Part shown: positions 48,664-55,214 of the stretch, in pieces
Numbering within the stretch: the first letter of the stretch is position 1
Layout of the letters: each line of letters begins with the position of its first letter
Assembly (NCBI RefSeq): GCF_004341685.1
Contig: NZ_SMAA01000003.1
Coordinates: forward strand, 1-64,000
DNA from: Pectinatus cerevisiiphilus
GTDB taxonomy: Bacteria; Bacillota; Negativicutes; Selenomonadales; Selenomonadaceae
Direction of reading: 5' to 3'
DNA length: 64,000 nt
The notes under the pieces: generated by a model
What the model was told of the DNA's origin: nothing
Database searches by the model: none
What the model saw: the letters and a program-made list of their open reading frames with translations, nothing else
Translations under genes and position numbers: made by a program

Positions 48664-50271
48664 TTGAAAAGTGAAATTGTGTCATTTGGCGATATTGCTC
48701 TGAGCAAAAAAATTGTTAATGCATTGAGTGACATGGGGTTTGAGGAACCTTCGCCTATTCAGGCAAAGACCATTCCTTTAGTCCTAGAAGGAGACGATGT
48801 ATTAGGACAGGCTCAGACGGGAACAGGTAAAACAGCTGCTTTCGGCATACCTACAATCGAAAAGATTGATGAAACAGATCGCCATATACAAGCACTTGTT
48901 ATAGCACCTACAAGAGAGTTGGCTATTCAAGTAGCGGAAGAATTAAATAAAATAGGTAAGTATAAACGTATAAAGACGCTGCCTATTTACGGCGGGCAAA
49001 TGATTGAACGCCAGATTCGTGCCTTGAAAAACGGCATAAAGATTATAGTGGGAACACCAGGACGGCTTTTAGATCATATAAACCGGAAAACAATAAATCT
49101 TAGCTATGTAAGAACACTTATTTTAGATGAAGCAGATGAAATGCTTGATATGGGATTTATTGATGATATAAAAACAATAATGTCCAACATTCCTAATGAA
49201 AACCGCCAAACATTGCTGTTTTCAGCTACAATGCCAGCTTCTATTGAAAAATTGGCACAAGGCTATATGAATAAACCAAAGAAGATATTGATTAGCAGAG
49301 AGCATTTGACGGTGCCCCTTATTGATCAAATTTATTATGAAACCAGAGAAAAATTTGATGGTTTATGCCGTGTCCTTGATGTGGAAGGAACTGGTAAGTT
49401 CATTATTTTCTGCCGTACCAAGAAAAATGTAGATGATATTCTGGCCTCCCTGGAAGCCCGTGGTTATATGGCCGGCGGACTGCATGGAGATATGAACCAA
49501 GCACAGCGTCAAAGAGTAATGAAGAAGTTTCGTGATGGTAAATTAGATATTCTGATTGCTACTGATGTTGCGGCTAGAGGTATAGATATAGATGATATTA
49601 CACATGTTATCAATTATGATATACCGCAGGATCATGAATCATATGTACATCGTATAGGTAGAACAGGCAGGGCAGGACGCAGCGGTATTGCTATAACCTT
49701 TATAGAACCGCGTGAATATCGCCAGCTTCGCCTCATTGAAAAATTGATCAAGCATAAAATGATACGTGGTCAATTACCGACATCAGCAGATGTATTGGAA
49801 CTTCAAAAGGAATCCATTAAAGAAAAACTGGTGAAGGTACTTCAGGCTAATAATTATTCTGATTATCATATGATAATATCAGATTTAGTTTCCGAACAAT
49901 ATGATTCACTGGATATTGCTGCAGCTGCGGTAAAATTATCTGTTGAAGGCTTAAAAGACCGTGATCAGGATGGTACTGATGAAGGCGGCAATATTGAACG
50001 GAAGTTTGATAATAGTGGCGGCGCACCTGGTATGGTGAGATTGTTCATCAATATAGGTCGCAACCAAAAAATACGGCCGGAAGATATAGTTCGCTTTATA
50101 GCTACAGAAGCTGATATTCCCGGTAACATAATCGGTGTAATAAATATATATGATAAATTCACTTTTGTTGAAGTGCCGCGCAATGTGGCTGAAAGAGTTA
50201 TTTCAGTGATGCATAGGAATACATTAAAAGGTTATAAAATTAATGTAGAACCGGCAAAAAATCGCAATTAA
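48664..50271 (+). CDS. deaD: DEAD-box RNA helicase (DeaD/CshA type)
   Basis: 535 residues. Helicase core: Q motif FEEPSPIQ, Walker A AQTGTGKT at 50-57, DEAD in ILDEADEMLD, SAT and HRIGRTGRAGRSG. A DbpA/CsdA RNA-binding domain follows near 455-528 (VRLFINIGRNQKIRPEDIV). Start TTG with AGGAGG 10 bases upstream. It remodels RNA and likely helps ribosome assembly or cold adaptation; the 179-base leader would fit cold control but shows no clear structure. Confidence 0.9.
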   Translation: MKSEIVSFGDIALSKKIVNALSDMGFEEPSPIQAKTIPLVLEGDDVLGQAQTGTGKTAAFGIPTIEKIDETDRHIQALVIAPTRELAIQVAEELNKIGKYKRIKTLPIYGGQMIERQIRALKNGIKIIVGTPGRLLDHINRKTINLSYVRTLILDEADEMLDMGFIDDIKTIMSNIPNENRQTLLFSATMPASIEKLAQGYMNKPKKILISREHLTVPLIDQIYYETREKFDGLCRVLDVEGTGKFIIFCRTKKNVDDILASLEARGYMAGGLHGDMNQAQRQRVMKKFRDGKLDILIATDVAARGIDIDDITHVINYDIPQDHESYVHRIGRTGRAGRSGIAITFIEPREYRQLRLIEKLIKHKMIRGQLPTSADVLELQKESIKEKLVKVLQANNYSDYHMIISDLVSEQYDSLDIAAAAVKLSVEGLKDRDQDGTDEGGNIERKFDNSGGAPGMVRLFINIGRNQKIRPEDIVRFIATEADIPGNIIGVINIYDKFTFVEVPRNVAERVISVMHRNTLKGYKINVEPAKNRN

Positions 50272-50368: not shown

Positions 50369-50369
50369 T

Positions 50370-50413
50370 AAAAAAGCTGTAGCGCAGAAAATTTTCTGCG
50401 CTACAGCTTTTTT
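50370..50413. terminator. Perfect 44-nt palindrome, bidirectional terminator
   Basis: 50370-50391 and 50392-50413 are exact reverse complements with no loop left over. The stem AGCTGTAGCGCAG is flanked by six A and six T, so it terminates both the plus-strand helicase and the minus-strand glmM. Confidence 0.85.
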
Positions 50414-50431
50414 AATCGAAGGAAAGGGGAA

Positions 50432-51781
50432 TCAGCCTTGTTCTTCTTTGATGATATCACCAATAGATTGGCAAATACTTTCCAATTGTTTTTGGTCAGG
50501 GCCTTCGGCCATTACGCGTATTAAAGGTTCCGTACCAGAAGGGCGCACTAAAATACGACCGTCGCAGCCAAGTTCTGTTTCACCTTTTTTAATAGCCTGT
50601 TTGATTACGTCATTGTCCTGCCAGCCATCTTTAGAAGCAACATGCACATTGAGCAGTAACTGGGGATAACTTATCATCGTATCAACTATTTGGGAGGCTT
50701 TAATTTTATTCGTGACAATATGGGCGAGCACTTGTAGGGCAGTAATGAGTCCATCGCCTGTAGTGGCGAAGTCAGTGAAGATAACATGCCCAGATTGTTC
50801 CCCACCCAAATTGTAATTGTTCTTTTTCATATTTTCTAAGACGTAGCGATCGCCTACAGCTGTAATTTCAACTTTACAGCCATTTGCCTTGAGTGCTTTG
50901 TGAAAACCAATATTGGCCATAACTGTTGAAACAACTGTATTGTTATGGAGTTCATTTCTCTTTTTCATCGCCAGGGCACAGGCGACAATAATATGGTCAC
51001 CATCAATAACGCGTCCTTTTTCATCAACGCAAAGGCAGCGGTCTGCATCGCCGTCATGGGCTACACCAATATCTGCCCCGTGGGATAAAACCTCTTTCTG
51101 TAAGTTTTCTAAATGTGTTGAACCACAATTATCGTTTATGTTAATTCCATCAGGGCTGTCATTGATAACTATAAGTTTTGCCCCAAGCCTGCGTAAAACT
51201 GCTGGCATTGATTCGTAGGCGGCACCGTTGGCGCAGTCAAGGACAATTTTTAAATCAGTGAGCTTGATATTTATAGTTGAAGTAACATAATCAATGTAAT
51301 CATACACTAAATCATGGCGGTATGTGATCATTCCTACATTTTTACCGGTGGCACGGGGAAAAGTGTCATTGACACTGATCTGGTGGACTATTTCGGCGAC
51401 TTCATCTTCAACTTCGTCAGGTAGTTTATAACCATCACCACCAAAAAATTTTATACCATTATCATGAAATGGATTATGTGATGCAGAAATCACTATACCG
51501 GCTTTTGCCTTATGTTTTTTTGTCAAGTAAGCTATCGCAGGAGTGGGGATAATGCCGGTTATAATGACATTACCACCTGCTGAACAAATACCGGCAGCTA
51601 ATGCTGCTTCGAACATGGCTCCTGAAATTCTGGTGTCGCGGCCAATAAGAATTTTACAGTTTTCCTTATCATTTTTATCAAAATATAAGGCAGCAGCCCT
51701 GCCAAGATTATAAGCAAGTTCAGCTGTCAATTCTTTATTAGCTTCACCACGTACGCCATCTGTGCCAAAAAGTCTAGTCAT
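50432..51781 (-). CDS. glmM: Phosphoglucosamine mutase
   Basis: 449 residues. Converts glucosamine-6-phosphate to glucosamine-1-phosphate for UDP-GlcNAc. Catalytic serine S101 in VISASHNP, metal loop HDGDADRCL and substrate loop GEQSGHV. ATG with GAGGAGAG upstream. Last gene of the cdaA operon, 39 bases after the COG2509 flavoprotein. In Bacillus and Listeria GlmM is inhibited by CdaA; the conserved linkage is kept here apart from the insertion. Confidence 0.96.
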   Translation of the reverse strand: MTRLFGTDGVRGEANKELTAELAYNLGRAAALYFDKNDKENCKILIGRDTRISGAMFEAALAAGICSAGGNVIITGIIPTPAIAYLTKKHKAKAGIVISASHNPFHDNGIKFFGGDGYKLPDEVEDEVAEIVHQISVNDTFPRATGKNVGMITYRHDLVYDYIDYVTSTINIKLTDLKIVLDCANGAAYESMPAVLRRLGAKLIVINDSPDGININDNCGSTHLENLQKEVLSHGADIGVAHDGDADRCLCVDEKGRVIDGDHIIVACALAMKKRNELHNNTVVSTVMANIGFHKALKANGCKVEITAVGDRYVLENMKKNNYNLGGEQSGHVIFTDFATTGDGLITALQVLAHIVTNKIKASQIVDTMISYPQLLLNVHVASKDGWQDNDVIKQAIKKGETELGCDGRILVRPSGTEPLIRVMAEGPDQKQLESICQSIGDIIKEEQG

Positions 51782-51820
51782 TAAAGAAATCTCTCCTCGA
51801 AATTTAATTTGATTTAATTA

Positions 51821-53446
51821 TTAGATTTTATTTTGTTTTGTCTGTATATAACTTAGGGCAGCGTTGATTCCGTCTATTGCAGCACTCATTATGCCGCCTG
51901 CATAACCTGCTCCTTCACCGATAGGATAGAGTCCTCCTGTGTTAGTAGAAAGAAGGGTATCCTTATCCCTTAAAATACGGCATGGTGAAGAAGAACGCAT
52001 TTCAAGACCTGTCAATATTGCCGATTCATTAGCAAAGCCAGGAATCTTTTTTTCAAAAGAAGGTAATGCCAGTTCAATTGATGTTGCTATTCTAGCAGGG
52101 AGTAGTGTATGCAGATCAGCTAAAGTAACGCCTGGTTTATAAGTAGGGACAGTGAGAAATTTATCAGAACCATGTTTATGTTTTAAAAAGTCGCCTACAG
52201 TTTGAACCGGAGCATAGTAATTTTTTCCGCCGGCAATATATGCGATATTTTCATAATGCCGCTGGAATTCAATTCCGGCTAAAGGATCATTACCAAAATC
52301 AGCAGGTGTCACAGGGGATAGTAAAGCACTGTTGGCAATACCCGAGTTTCTGGCATGATAACTCATCCCATTAGTGGTAAGGTATTTCTTTTCTGAAGCG
52401 GCAGCCACTACTTTTCCGCCTGGACACATACAAAAGGAATAACAGGATAAAGCTTTTTCCCGATCCTGCCATGTCAAAGCATAGTCCGCAGCAGGTAAAC
52501 GTGCATTGCCCGCATCCACGCCGTATTGTGCGGTATCTATCAAAGCCTGTGGATGCTCAATACGTACACCTATGGCAAAAGGCTTGGCCTGCATTTGGAC
52601 ACCTTTTTGCAGAAGCATTTCGTACGTGTCACGGGCACTATGTCCTATGCCTAGAAATAAGGCGTCACAAGGGATTTCTTCTTTCGCCTGCGTAACTATT
52701 CCCTGTAATTGTTTATTAACTATTTTTAAATCGGTAAGCCTAGTAAGAAAATATATGGAAGCATTTGCTTTTAAAAGCTTTTTACGGATGTTTTTCACCA
52801 CTCTGCGCAATATATCTGTACCAATATGTGGTTTATGCAAATAGCATATTTCCGGGGGCGCGCCGGCTTCAACAAAATCGGCTAATACTTGCTGTATCTT
52901 GGCATCGTTGATTCGAGTGGTCAATTTTCCATCAGAAAAAGCACCAGCTCCGCCTTCCCCAAATTGCATATTAGAATAAAAGTTAAGGTTGCCTGTGCGC
53001 CAAAAGTCTTTTATATCTTGGTGCCTTGTATCAACGTCGCAGCCTCTTTCTAAAATAAGAGGCCAATATCCATATCGGCATAATGTCAGCGCACAAAACA
53101 TACCGGCAGGACCAAACCCTACGATGATAGGGCGAGGATCGGTGTAATGCTTTGTTACTGGTATGGCAGGCATTGCATTTACTGCGGGCGGTATATCAGT
53201 AATAATATTTTTATTTGTCTTTAAGCGTTTGGCAAAATGTTTTTTGTCAATGCCATCATTTAAAAGCACATCGATGGTAAAGACATTATAGATGGGAGCG
53301 TTTTTATACCTTCGAGCATCGATGGCCTTGTGGATAATAGTTATTTTTTTGATATAGCTATCTGAAATTTTCAGATAGCTGGCAACTATTTTTTCCAAAG
53401 GATCGGTATTGTCGAAAGGAACATTTAAATTTTTTATACGGATCAA
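51821..53446 (-). CDS. FAD-dependent oxidoreductase (COG2509)
   Basis: 541 residues. Uncharacterised NAD(FAD)-utilising dehydrogenase family. A 100-residue N-terminal domain precedes the FAD site IVGFGPAGMFCALTLCRYG near 107-125; FGEGGAGAFSDGKLTTR and the C-terminal GEGAGYAGGIMSAAIDG complete it. Start TTG overlaps the cdaR stop (TTGA), with AAGGAG upstream. It lies between cdaR and glmM, which are normally adjacent. The reaction is unknown. Confidence 0.85.
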   Translation of the reverse strand: MIRIKNLNVPFDNTDPLEKIVASYLKISDSYIKKITIIHKAIDARRYKNAPIYNVFTIDVLLNDGIDKKHFAKRLKTNKNIITDIPPAVNAMPAIPVTKHYTDPRPIIVGFGPAGMFCALTLCRYGYWPLILERGCDVDTRHQDIKDFWRTGNLNFYSNMQFGEGGAGAFSDGKLTTRINDAKIQQVLADFVEAGAPPEICYLHKPHIGTDILRRVVKNIRKKLLKANASIYFLTRLTDLKIVNKQLQGIVTQAKEEIPCDALFLGIGHSARDTYEMLLQKGVQMQAKPFAIGVRIEHPQALIDTAQYGVDAGNARLPAADYALTWQDREKALSCYSFCMCPGGKVVAAASEKKYLTTNGMSYHARNSGIANSALLSPVTPADFGNDPLAGIEFQRHYENIAYIAGGKNYYAPVQTVGDFLKHKHGSDKFLTVPTYKPGVTLADLHTLLPARIATSIELALPSFEKKIPGFANESAILTGLEMRSSSPCRILRDKDTLLSTNTGGLYPIGEGAGYAGGIMSAAIDGINAALSYIQTKQNKI

Positions 53447-54393
53447 TTTTTCGAATCATCTCCTTGTTTAACGGGTTCTTTTTCAGAAATTTTAATGCTT
53501 ACCTTGACTGTGTTAGTGGAAACCGTGATTCCATCAGGAACTGCTAAATTGACAGTTTGTTCACCCGAACTCGTCATTTTAGCTAAAGAAATCTTTGCGG
53601 TATCAAGGGAATTTATTGTAGAAATTACTTGTGGATTGCCTGTTATTTCTACCTTATCAGGTGTTGTTTTTAAAGAATCAAGCGTAAACTCTGTCGGCAG
53701 GTCAGAATCGGCTATGGGCCTTACTGCGACAACTTTATGGGTAAGCCCATGAGCTAGGGTGATGCTGGCGTTGACAGTGGAACTTAAAAGCGTAACGTCG
53801 CTGACTTCTTTATTATTGTCATCTACAGCGCGAAGCGGAACGATGACAGTGAAATCATCCTTATTATTGTCCAGCCCTATATAACCTATAGCCTTGCGGA
53901 CTTGGTCAACTTGTGTCCGCGGCCCTTTTACGACAATGGTATCAGCTGATTGTTTGGTGTCGGCGACAACCATATCGTCGGCAGGTTTTCCAGAAAGTAT
54001 AAGATCAATTGGAATCTGTTTCTGGATTATCTCATCGATGACAAATTTTACATTTTCTGGTGTTGAACTAATTAATTCAAAACCGGCAGGAAGCTGGATA
54101 TGGACAGGCAGAGTCTGTTCTCCTTCTTGCACATTAGCAAGGTCTACATATGCTTTAAAATCAGAGTTGTCCACAGCAGCAAATGCAGAACGAGGTGCTT
54201 TGAGGACGAGTTTTATCGTATCGCTGTCATGGTGGATTTGATAACCATCAGGCGCATTAATAATACTGAGTTGTACAGAAACCGAGCTTGTTATTGATGG
54301 ATTCTGCTCATTCATTACATACAACCATAAACCTAAAGCTAATAATAAAGATAAGCCTTTTAAAAATAAATTCTGCCTTAAAAAATTGATCAT
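53443..54393 (-). CDS. cdaR: YbbR-domain protein, CdaA regulator
   Basis: 316 residues. One N-terminal membrane helix (about 11-26) and then YbbR repeats outside the cytoplasm, e.g. INAPDGYQI, LPAGFELISSTPENVKFVID and TPDKVEITGNPQVI. It binds and regulates the diadenylate cyclase encoded just upstream, whose gene it overlaps by four bases. GGAGG 11 bases before the ATG. Confidence 0.9.
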   Translation of the reverse strand: MINFLRQNLFLKGLSLLLALGLWLYVMNEQNPSITSSVSVQLSIINAPDGYQIHHDSDTIKLVLKAPRSAFAAVDNSDFKAYVDLANVQEGEQTLPVHIQLPAGFELISSTPENVKFVIDEIIQKQIPIDLILSGKPADDMVVADTKQSADTIVVKGPRTQVDQVRKAIGYIGLDNNKDDFTVIVPLRAVDDNNKEVSDVTLLSSTVNASITLAHGLTHKVVAVRPIADSDLPTEFTLDSLKTTPDKVEITGNPQVISTINSLDTAKISLAKMTSSGEQTVNLAVPDGITVSTNTVKVSIKISEKEPVKQGDDSKN

Positions 54394-55214
54394 TTTTTAT
54401 TGTTCCTCCAGTTCCTGATAAAATCGCTGAACACAGAAGATTTTTGGGAAAACAGCGGTATCAGATACTGCTTGAGTTGGTCTGAATCCAAATGCCTGTA
54501 TATGCGGCCGTGCTCGGCAACGGATATCGTCCCTGTTTCTTCACTTACTACTACCACTACCGCGTCACATTGTTCAGATAAGCCGATAGCTGCGCGATGG
54601 CGTGTACCAAGTTCTGTACTGAGGGTACGGTCATCAGTGAGCGGTAGCAGACAGCCAGAAGCAATGATACGTTTTCCCCTGATGATTGTGGCACCGTCAT
54701 GGAGAGGCGTATTGACAATAAAAATATTCATCAGCAGTTCAGAGGATACCACTCCGTCTATGAAAATACCATTTGAAGCTATATCATCAAGACCCATTTC
54801 TCGTTCAATAACGATAAGCGCACCCGTTTTTTTCTGTGCCATACGTACGACGGCAGAATCAATTTCGTTGACAAGACTGCGCGCTTCGTGGATATCTAAT
54901 AGCGATGAGCGTACAAAGACTCGTCCTTGCCCGATATGTTCAAGAGCGCGGCGCAGTTCAGGTTGAAAAACAATTGGTAGGGCTACAAACAGTAATGTTA
55001 CAGTTTTTTGCAAGAGCCAGTAAATAACGTGAAGGCCAAGCCAGTCACTCACGATGGTGAGTACTAGTAGTACGATAATGCCCTTGACCAGAGTGATTGC
55101 CCTAGTGTTTTTCAACATTTCATATGATTTATATAAAATAATGGCAACAACAATAATGTCAACGACATCAAGTGCACTGATAGTTGATAATAATCCTTTT
55201 ATTTCTATTAACAT
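54390..55214 (-). CDS. cdaA: Membrane diadenylate cyclase CdaA
   Basis: 274 residues. Three N-terminal membrane segments (about 15-80), then a DisA_N domain with DGA at 173-175 and RHR at 205-207, the ATP-binding motifs. It makes c-di-AMP from two ATP. AAGGAG 8 bases before the ATG. First gene of cdaA-cdaR-COG2509-glmM. Confidence 0.96.
   Translation of the reverse strand: MLIEIKGLLSTISALDVVDIIVVAIILYKSYEMLKNTRAITLVKGIIVLLVLTIVSDWLGLHVIYWLLQKTVTLLFVALPIVFQPELRRALEHIGQGRVFVRSSLLDIHEARSLVNEIDSAVVRMAQKKTGALIVIEREMGLDDIASNGIFIDGVVSSELLMNIFIVNTPLHDGATIIRGKRIIASGCLLPLTDDRTLSTELGTRHRAAIGLSEQCDAVVVVVSEETGTISVAEHGRIYRHLDSDQLKQYLIPLFSQKSSVFSDFIRNWRNNKK

Follow-up and report, generated by a model that had tools for sequence, protein, structure and literature searches.

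The first 64,000 nucleotides of contig NZ_SMAA01000003.1 of Pectinatus cerevisiiphilus (class Negativicutes; assembly GCF_004341685.1; hereafter, the window) carry four minus-strand genes that together fill positions 50432–55214 exactly (Table 1). Three of them, encoding the diadenylate cyclase CdaA, the YbbR-domain regulator CdaR and the phosphoglucosamine mutase GlmM, are the same genes, in the same order and on a single strand, as in the cdaA-cdaR-glmM (dacA-ybbR-glmM) operon of Bacillota. The P. cerevisiiphilus locus differs by a fourth gene, for a flavin adenine dinucleotide (FAD)-dependent-type protein (hereafter, the flavoprotein), which lies between cdaR and glmM and breaks their direct adjacency. 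CdaA matches PF02457 (E = 3.7e-44) with a TIGR00159 score that exceeds the cut-off, and is the sole match to the diadenylate cyclase (DAC) domain in the P. cerevisiiphilus genome. The wording 'three- or four-gene operon' has been used before, in a passage of PMC6368335 where the fourth gene is not named, and the open-licence literature that we searched, mostly by listings, yielded no description of a flavoprotein within the cdaA-cdaR-glmM operon.

Table 1. Coordinates of the genes, protein regions and hairpin at the P. cerevisiiphilus cdaA-cdaR-flavoprotein-glmM locus (positions in the window).
Feature	Position	Strand	Description	Evidence
cdaA	55214-54390	minus	274 residues; membrane-bound diadenylate cyclase; first gene of the putative operon	PF02457, PF19293, TIGR00159
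cdaR	54393-53443	minus	316 residues; YbbR-domain regulator	PF07949, three stretches, 2.6e-22
COG2509-type FAD-dependent protein gene	53446-51821	minus	541 residues; TTG start	PF21688; match to 3nlc
N-terminal ferredoxin-like domain with D43-A44-R45 motif	53147-53446	minus	residues 1-100, the part folded separately	
C339-x-C341 of the FCMCPGG motif	52424-52432	minus	position reckoned from the TTG start	Cys pair invariant in the 45- and 51-sequence alignments
glmM	51781-50432	minus	449 residues; phosphoglucosamine mutase	TIGR01455, 579 bits (cut-off 447.55)
Terminator-like hairpin 3' of glmM	50369-50414	minus		-33 kcal/mol; z -9.0; 0 of 200 shuffles as good

The genes are closely packed. cdaA and cdaR overlap by four bases, and so do cdaR and the flavoprotein gene, as a preliminary description of this locus had stated, with the TTG start at 53446–53444 set against the cdaR stop codon TGA at 53445–53443. 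This TTG is the first ATG, GTG or TTG downstream of an in-frame stop, and its position aligns with a methionine, residue 11 of the chain, in the solved relative 3nlc; an AAGGAG lies 13 nucleotides 5' of it, which is a long spacing. Only 39 bases then separate the flavoprotein gene from glmM. Together, the overlaps, this short gap and the hairpin at the end suggest that the four genes are co-transcribed. The hairpin is long and near-palindromic, with A and T runs on its flanks, and sits between glmM and a convergent plus-strand gene that ends at 50271; it could stop transcripts arriving from both directions, and was not among the matches of a simple scan. A promoter scan returned 28 sites, compared with 16.7 (standard deviation 4.9) in shuffled sequences, and was dropped as not interpretable. 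As a separate observation, CdaR has diverged far more rapidly than the proteins encoded next to it, being 29–32% identical to its counterparts in three class members (L096, L105 and L112), for which the figures are 57–61% for CdaA and 49–52% for the flavoprotein.

The identity of the third gene, described beforehand as a COG2509 FAD oxidoreductase, is supported by a match of its product to PF21688 (FAD-depend_C; E = 1e-72, 245 bits, gathering cut-off 27). Residues 1–531, with the N-terminal domain included, also match 3nlc (E = 3.6e-133), the structure of VP0956, which resembles the flavoprotein over its full length, differs in its gene setting, and has no more specific PDB name than 'uncharacterised protein'. 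The label COG2509 is that of the preliminary description. An AlphaFold model built from a 51-sequence alignment (predicted local distance difference test, pLDDT, 90.7; predicted template modelling score, pTM, 0.91) superimposes on 3nlc with a Z of 54.3 and 2.2 Å over 524 residues (VIA-align). As modelled, the protein has two parts: a ferredoxin-like domain at the N-terminus, and a core of FAD-binding type that contains an invariant CxC. In the core, G110, G112, P113 and G115 of the dinucleotide-binding glycine motif are invariant in alignments of 45 and of 51 sequences, and the 51 diverse family members have the motifs in common. The invariant residues of the N-terminal motif are D43 and R45, with A44 between them conserved at 90% or more. 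The first 82 residues of this domain form a beta-alpha-beta-beta-alpha-beta arrangement in the model, and the same elements appear when it is folded alone (pLDDT 88.4), with the final strand down to two residues.

To our knowledge, no reaction has been assigned to the COG2509/PF21688 family, although its members are widespread and one has a solved structure. After 3nlc, the best-ranked Foldseek neighbours of the model are 2i0z, 4cnj and 3v76, which are HI0933-type structures; MnmG follows at ranks 7–9, and the top ten also hold a carotenoid desaturase and SDHA. With VIA-align, HI0933-type chains (Z 19.3–20.9) are tied with fumarate reductase (19.8). The HI0933/YhiN family (PF03486; TIGR00275) is thus among the nearest solved folds, but the flavoprotein differs from it by the extra N-terminal domain, and matches neither PF03486 nor PF22780 at E ≤ 0.001; a relative, L243, reaches 23.4 bits with PF03486, below the cut-off of 50. 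Besides 3nlc, the fold search with the N-terminal domain gave no significant match; it is weakly like ribosomal protein S6 (Foldseek E of 0.024 and up), some RNA-binding folds, and ACT-type and other ferredoxin-like folds.

Is the four-gene arrangement peculiar to one strain? A neighbourhood survey of the Negativicutes, as proposed in the preliminary description, shows that it is not. The class sample consisted of the 60 genomes of a relatives search, P. cerevisiiphilus included, from which 59 loci were examined, together with four class genomes from a phylum search, making 63. All 60 genomes have a match to the flavoprotein, which is only weak in G049 (best E = 3.6e-17), and the quartet cdaA-cdaR-flavoprotein-glmM is the rule, being present at 53 of the 63 loci. 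Five of the 10 loci that lack the full quartet are cut by contig ends: three before glmM is reached (G005, G006, G034), one that is without cdaA only (G044) and one without all of the upstream genes (G008). Four others (G010, G015, G019, G282) keep cdaA-cdaR-flavoprotein and have glmM elsewhere, one of which (G015) has a GlmS-type gene directly 3' of the flavoprotein gene. G028 keeps flavoprotein-glmM and has cdaA on a different contig, and G049 has a contiguous cdaA-cdaR-glmM trio with no flavoprotein open reading frame (ORF) in the stretches examined. Where cdaR was recognised (61 class loci), only eight loci have the −4 junction between cdaR and the flavoprotein gene, the range being −80 to +424 with ORFs called from their first start. 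The robust signal is conserved adjacency rather than the four-base overlap.

Beyond the class, the phylum draw comprised 299 genomes, 11 from the class itself, and 249 had some match, many only to a weaker family of ~460–510 residues. Clear relatives from outside the class occupy 115 loci (G171 has two), several of which are themselves cut; the set does not include fragments from G209 and G271 or the second pieces from G118 and G338. The quartet is found at 49 of these loci, cdaA-cdaR-flavoprotein without glmM at two, cdaA-flavoprotein-glmM at one, flavoprotein-glmM at three, and neither kind of partner at the tested distances at the remaining 60, one of which (G164) has glmM ~3 kb upstream. 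Thus 59 of 115 loci have none of cdaA, cdaR and glmM in the stretch examined; five of these 59 have < 1500 bases upstream and four < 500 downstream, so that at most nine are shortened by contig ends. A further set of 80 named loci includes 12 with cdaA and cdaR upstream, all Bacillota by title, and those of Pseudomonadota and cyanobacteria (Pseudomonas, Vibrio, Nodosilinea and others) have no cdaA, cdaR or glmM nearby. The quartet is, then, the usual form in Negativicutes, and several other Bacillota lineages commonly carry it as well; neither a cda nor a glmM partner is strictly required for the flavoprotein gene. Two other neighbours were seen. At seven loci (L141, L154, L155, L161, L165, L178, L180) the gene 3' of the flavoprotein gene belongs to one family, whose representative in L155 combines a solute-binding domain (PF00497) with an HD domain (PF13487). 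Four Pseudomonadota loci (three of them named) have a gene for a SpoU-type RNA methylase close to the flavoprotein gene, too few to use.

The spacing of cdaA and glmM, taken from 91 genomes with both genes among the 150 matches listed for each, is bimodal and follows the location of the flavoprotein gene. Where that gene is linked, cdaA and glmM lie 2.05–3.25 kb apart in 34 of 37 genomes (the others have them on different contigs, in two cases, or on opposite strands, in one). Where it is elsewhere in the genome, they are < 1.7 kb apart in all 17, and where no relative was fetched, in 32 of 37 (three are at 5.3–5.4 kb, one at 13.5 kb and one on different contigs). In G247 (contig C3:8146–10287) cdaA and glmM are only ~25 bases apart, hence with no cdaR between them. 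On a 205-row tree, linkage to the cda genes requires six changes and linkage to YhiN-like genes, described below, 20, which makes the latter much the less stable. A member of the P. cerevisiiphilus family, G011, pairs with Selenomonas noxia on it, which points to Selenomonadaceae as the probable family and is consistent with the class named in the preliminary description. This tree (FastTree, no bootstrap) holds proteins of at least 430 residues, includes 13 fetched class loci and P. cerevisiiphilus, and counts contig-cut loci as unlinked; two of its 'quartet' loci (L238, L240) have glmM about 2.4–2.8 kb after the flavoprotein gene. As the tree is unrooted, gain of the gene by insertion and its loss are indistinguishable.

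Three genomes of one genus (G073, G150, G204) gave no DAC match at E ≤ 0.001, and have, in a row, genes for a LacI-family regulator, the flavoprotein, glmM and glmS (loci L219, L220, L222); the LacI domain and the SIS and glutamine amidotransferase domains of GlmS were confirmed by Pfam in one of the three, L219. The flavoprotein gene can therefore stay beside glmM in genomes with no detected diadenylate cyclase.

A second recurrent neighbour is a gene like that for HI0933/YhiN, identified by PF03486 and TIGR00275. Among 143 loci (the 80 named, and 63 from outside the class in which neither cdaA nor cdaR was recognised) it is immediately upstream of the flavoprotein gene and on the same strand in 41, 21 of them named (e.g. 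L243, L260, L311), and in 30 of these 41 the two genes overlap or are at most 20 bases apart. The two such proteins that were scanned have PF22780 and lack PF21688. In P. cerevisiiphilus, one YhiN-family gene is above the cut-off among the matches listed (contig C3:158048–159259; L326), ~105 kb from the operon. A 66-row YhiN tree, made by a quick method, places 16 of 22 unlinked proteins, P. cerevisiiphilus YhiN included, in a separate clade without any linked one, and the other six among the linked proteins; E. coli YhiN is on a long branch.

Two papers report that CdaA, CdaR and GlmM form a complex in Bacillus subtilis, Listeria monocytogenes, Lactococcus lactis and Staphylococcus aureus, and that GlmM inhibits CdaA (PMC8573169; PMC6368335). 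The B. subtilis contact is between R126 of CdaA and D151, E154 and D195 of GlmM; P. cerevisiiphilus has K opposite Y, D and R, the numbering of R126 resting on an assumed chain start. An R or K occupies position 126 of CdaA in 12 of 60 class loci, two of 52 fetched outside-class loci and six of 30 trio genomes (a selection, each with cdaA and glmM on one contig < 1.7 kb apart); in 39 of the 60 class loci the residue is N or T. The GlmM contact positions are all acidic in none of 56 class loci, 16 of 54 outside the class and none of the 30 trio genomes. The idea that linked operons, unlike trios, keep the B. subtilis contact was dropped as evidence, there being no clear relation to the flavoprotein. 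Because the contact residues are poorly conserved in the class and beyond it, whether or not a flavoprotein gene is linked, the Bacilli mechanism cannot be taken for granted at this locus, and inhibition may work differently in Negativicutes.

Taken together, these data make it probable, in our estimation, that the locus is a four-gene version of the cdaA-cdaR-glmM operon whose flavoprotein does a housekeeping redox job independent of cyclic di-AMP (c-di-AMP) and gains from its position co-expression linked to growth. Co-transcription and translational coupling with cdaR are probable for the flavoprotein gene, and would have the protein made together with the c-di-AMP/peptidoglycan-precursor module. 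The protein, presumably an FAD-binding enzyme, most likely has a task that needs no c-di-AMP. The pattern of partners appears to fit a co-expressed housekeeping enzyme better than a dedicated regulator, and we judge the flavoprotein to be a conserved flavoenzyme with a housekeeping task, expressed along with genes for envelope precursors. Several observations weigh against this. At 61 of 63 class loci the distance from cdaR to the flavoprotein gene downstream of it is at most 424 bases, and at 59 it is at most 113, a stability that may leave room for a direct role with CdaA or CdaR; the four class genomes in which glmM has moved retain cdaA-cdaR-flavoprotein; and the three DAC-free genomes are all of one genus (g65), perhaps reflecting a single event. 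In addition, a lineage-specific regulatory role can be added onto a general one.

Such a role is the core of one alternative, foreshadowed by the preliminary suggestion of a redox link with c-di-AMP: the flavoprotein would bind CdaA, CdaR or GlmM and tune the cyclase according to the redox state of the cell. The stable adjacency with cdaR, also where glmM has moved, and the complex described in other Bacillota would suit it and give the suggestion partial support. We nonetheless regard it as improbable, since the flavoprotein gene persists beside glmM and glmS in three genomes without a DAC match and has no cda or glmM neighbour in the stretch examined at about half of the outside-class loci, G049 has CdaA, CdaR and GlmM without it, and the comparison of contact residues lends no support. 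The same preliminary suggestion extended to amino-sugar supply, a link in which the enzyme would act on, protect or sense a step near GlmM-GlmS in peptidoglycan-precursor synthesis. The gene row with glmM and glmS in the DAC-free genomes points this way, as do the retention of flavoprotein-glmM in G028 and the GlmS-type gene of G015. However, the many outside-class loci that show none of the three partners in the stretch examined count against it, as do the four class genomes that lost the glmM neighbour yet kept cdaR. We also know of no flavin-requiring step between GlmM and UDP-N-acetylglucosamine, a further point against an amino-sugar role, which we hold to be unlikely.

Two other explanations are compatible with the favoured housekeeping reading, and each is a minority possibility that we rate somewhat above the preceding two. 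The core related to HI0933/YhiN could belong to an RNA-acting flavoenzyme, its N-terminal domain helping to bind RNA, and a base of ribosomal or transfer RNA being reduced or otherwise modified. The YhiN-like neighbours, the Foldseek ranking with MnmG in it and the weakly S6-like N-terminal fold would agree with this. RdsA corresponds to YhiN. It is reported to introduce D2449 into E. coli 23S rRNA, an equivalent of which, D2467, is present in the chloroplast 23S rRNA (PMC12501074). Two further papers describe plastid proteins with a like domain, At4g30720 (SG3/PDE327) and rice TCD5, possible relatives of the flavoprotein that matter for chloroplasts and photosynthesis and whose mutants are albino or pale (PMC5014166; PMC2869320). 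On the other hand, the structural comparison ties HI0933-type chains with fumarate reductase and ranks a carotenoid desaturase and SDHA highly, the N-terminal matches besides 3nlc lack significance, with ACT-type and other folds among them, and E. coli YhiN, on its long branch, does not point to either subfamily as the RdsA-like one. YhiN linkage as proof of a partnership with RdsA was accordingly rejected, given the stand-alone clade that includes P. cerevisiiphilus YhiN, the 20 linkage changes, the 105-kb distance and the non-significant N-terminal matches. An RNA substrate is thinkable, no more. It is more doubtful still, and to us unlikely to about the same degree as the amino-sugar role or slightly more so, that the COG2509 protein is a second kind of RNA-modifying flavoenzyme, fold-related to YhiN/RdsA and present in bacteria and perhaps plastids, which in Negativicutes has joined the c-di-AMP/GlmM operon, making ribosome maturation go up in step with the supply of envelope precursors. 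The remaining explanation, as modest in its chances as the RNA-acting one, is that the gene is a passenger, staying in an essential operon only since breaking such operons is costly. The trios, closed where the flavoprotein is absent (G049) or encoded elsewhere (all 17 such genomes), are in line with it; the invariant motifs across 51 sequences and the few changes of cda linkage speak against it, and it would account for the place of the gene and not for its function.

The cdaA-cdaR-glmM operon is a model for a second messenger tied to wall-precursor supply, and was worked out in Bacilli. The fourth member of flavin-binding type, which is the rule in Negativicutes and often seen in other Bacillota, is a conserved component of the module that is absent from the Bacilli models. 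The operon also offers a tractable place in which to seek the reaction of the COG2509/PF21688 family.

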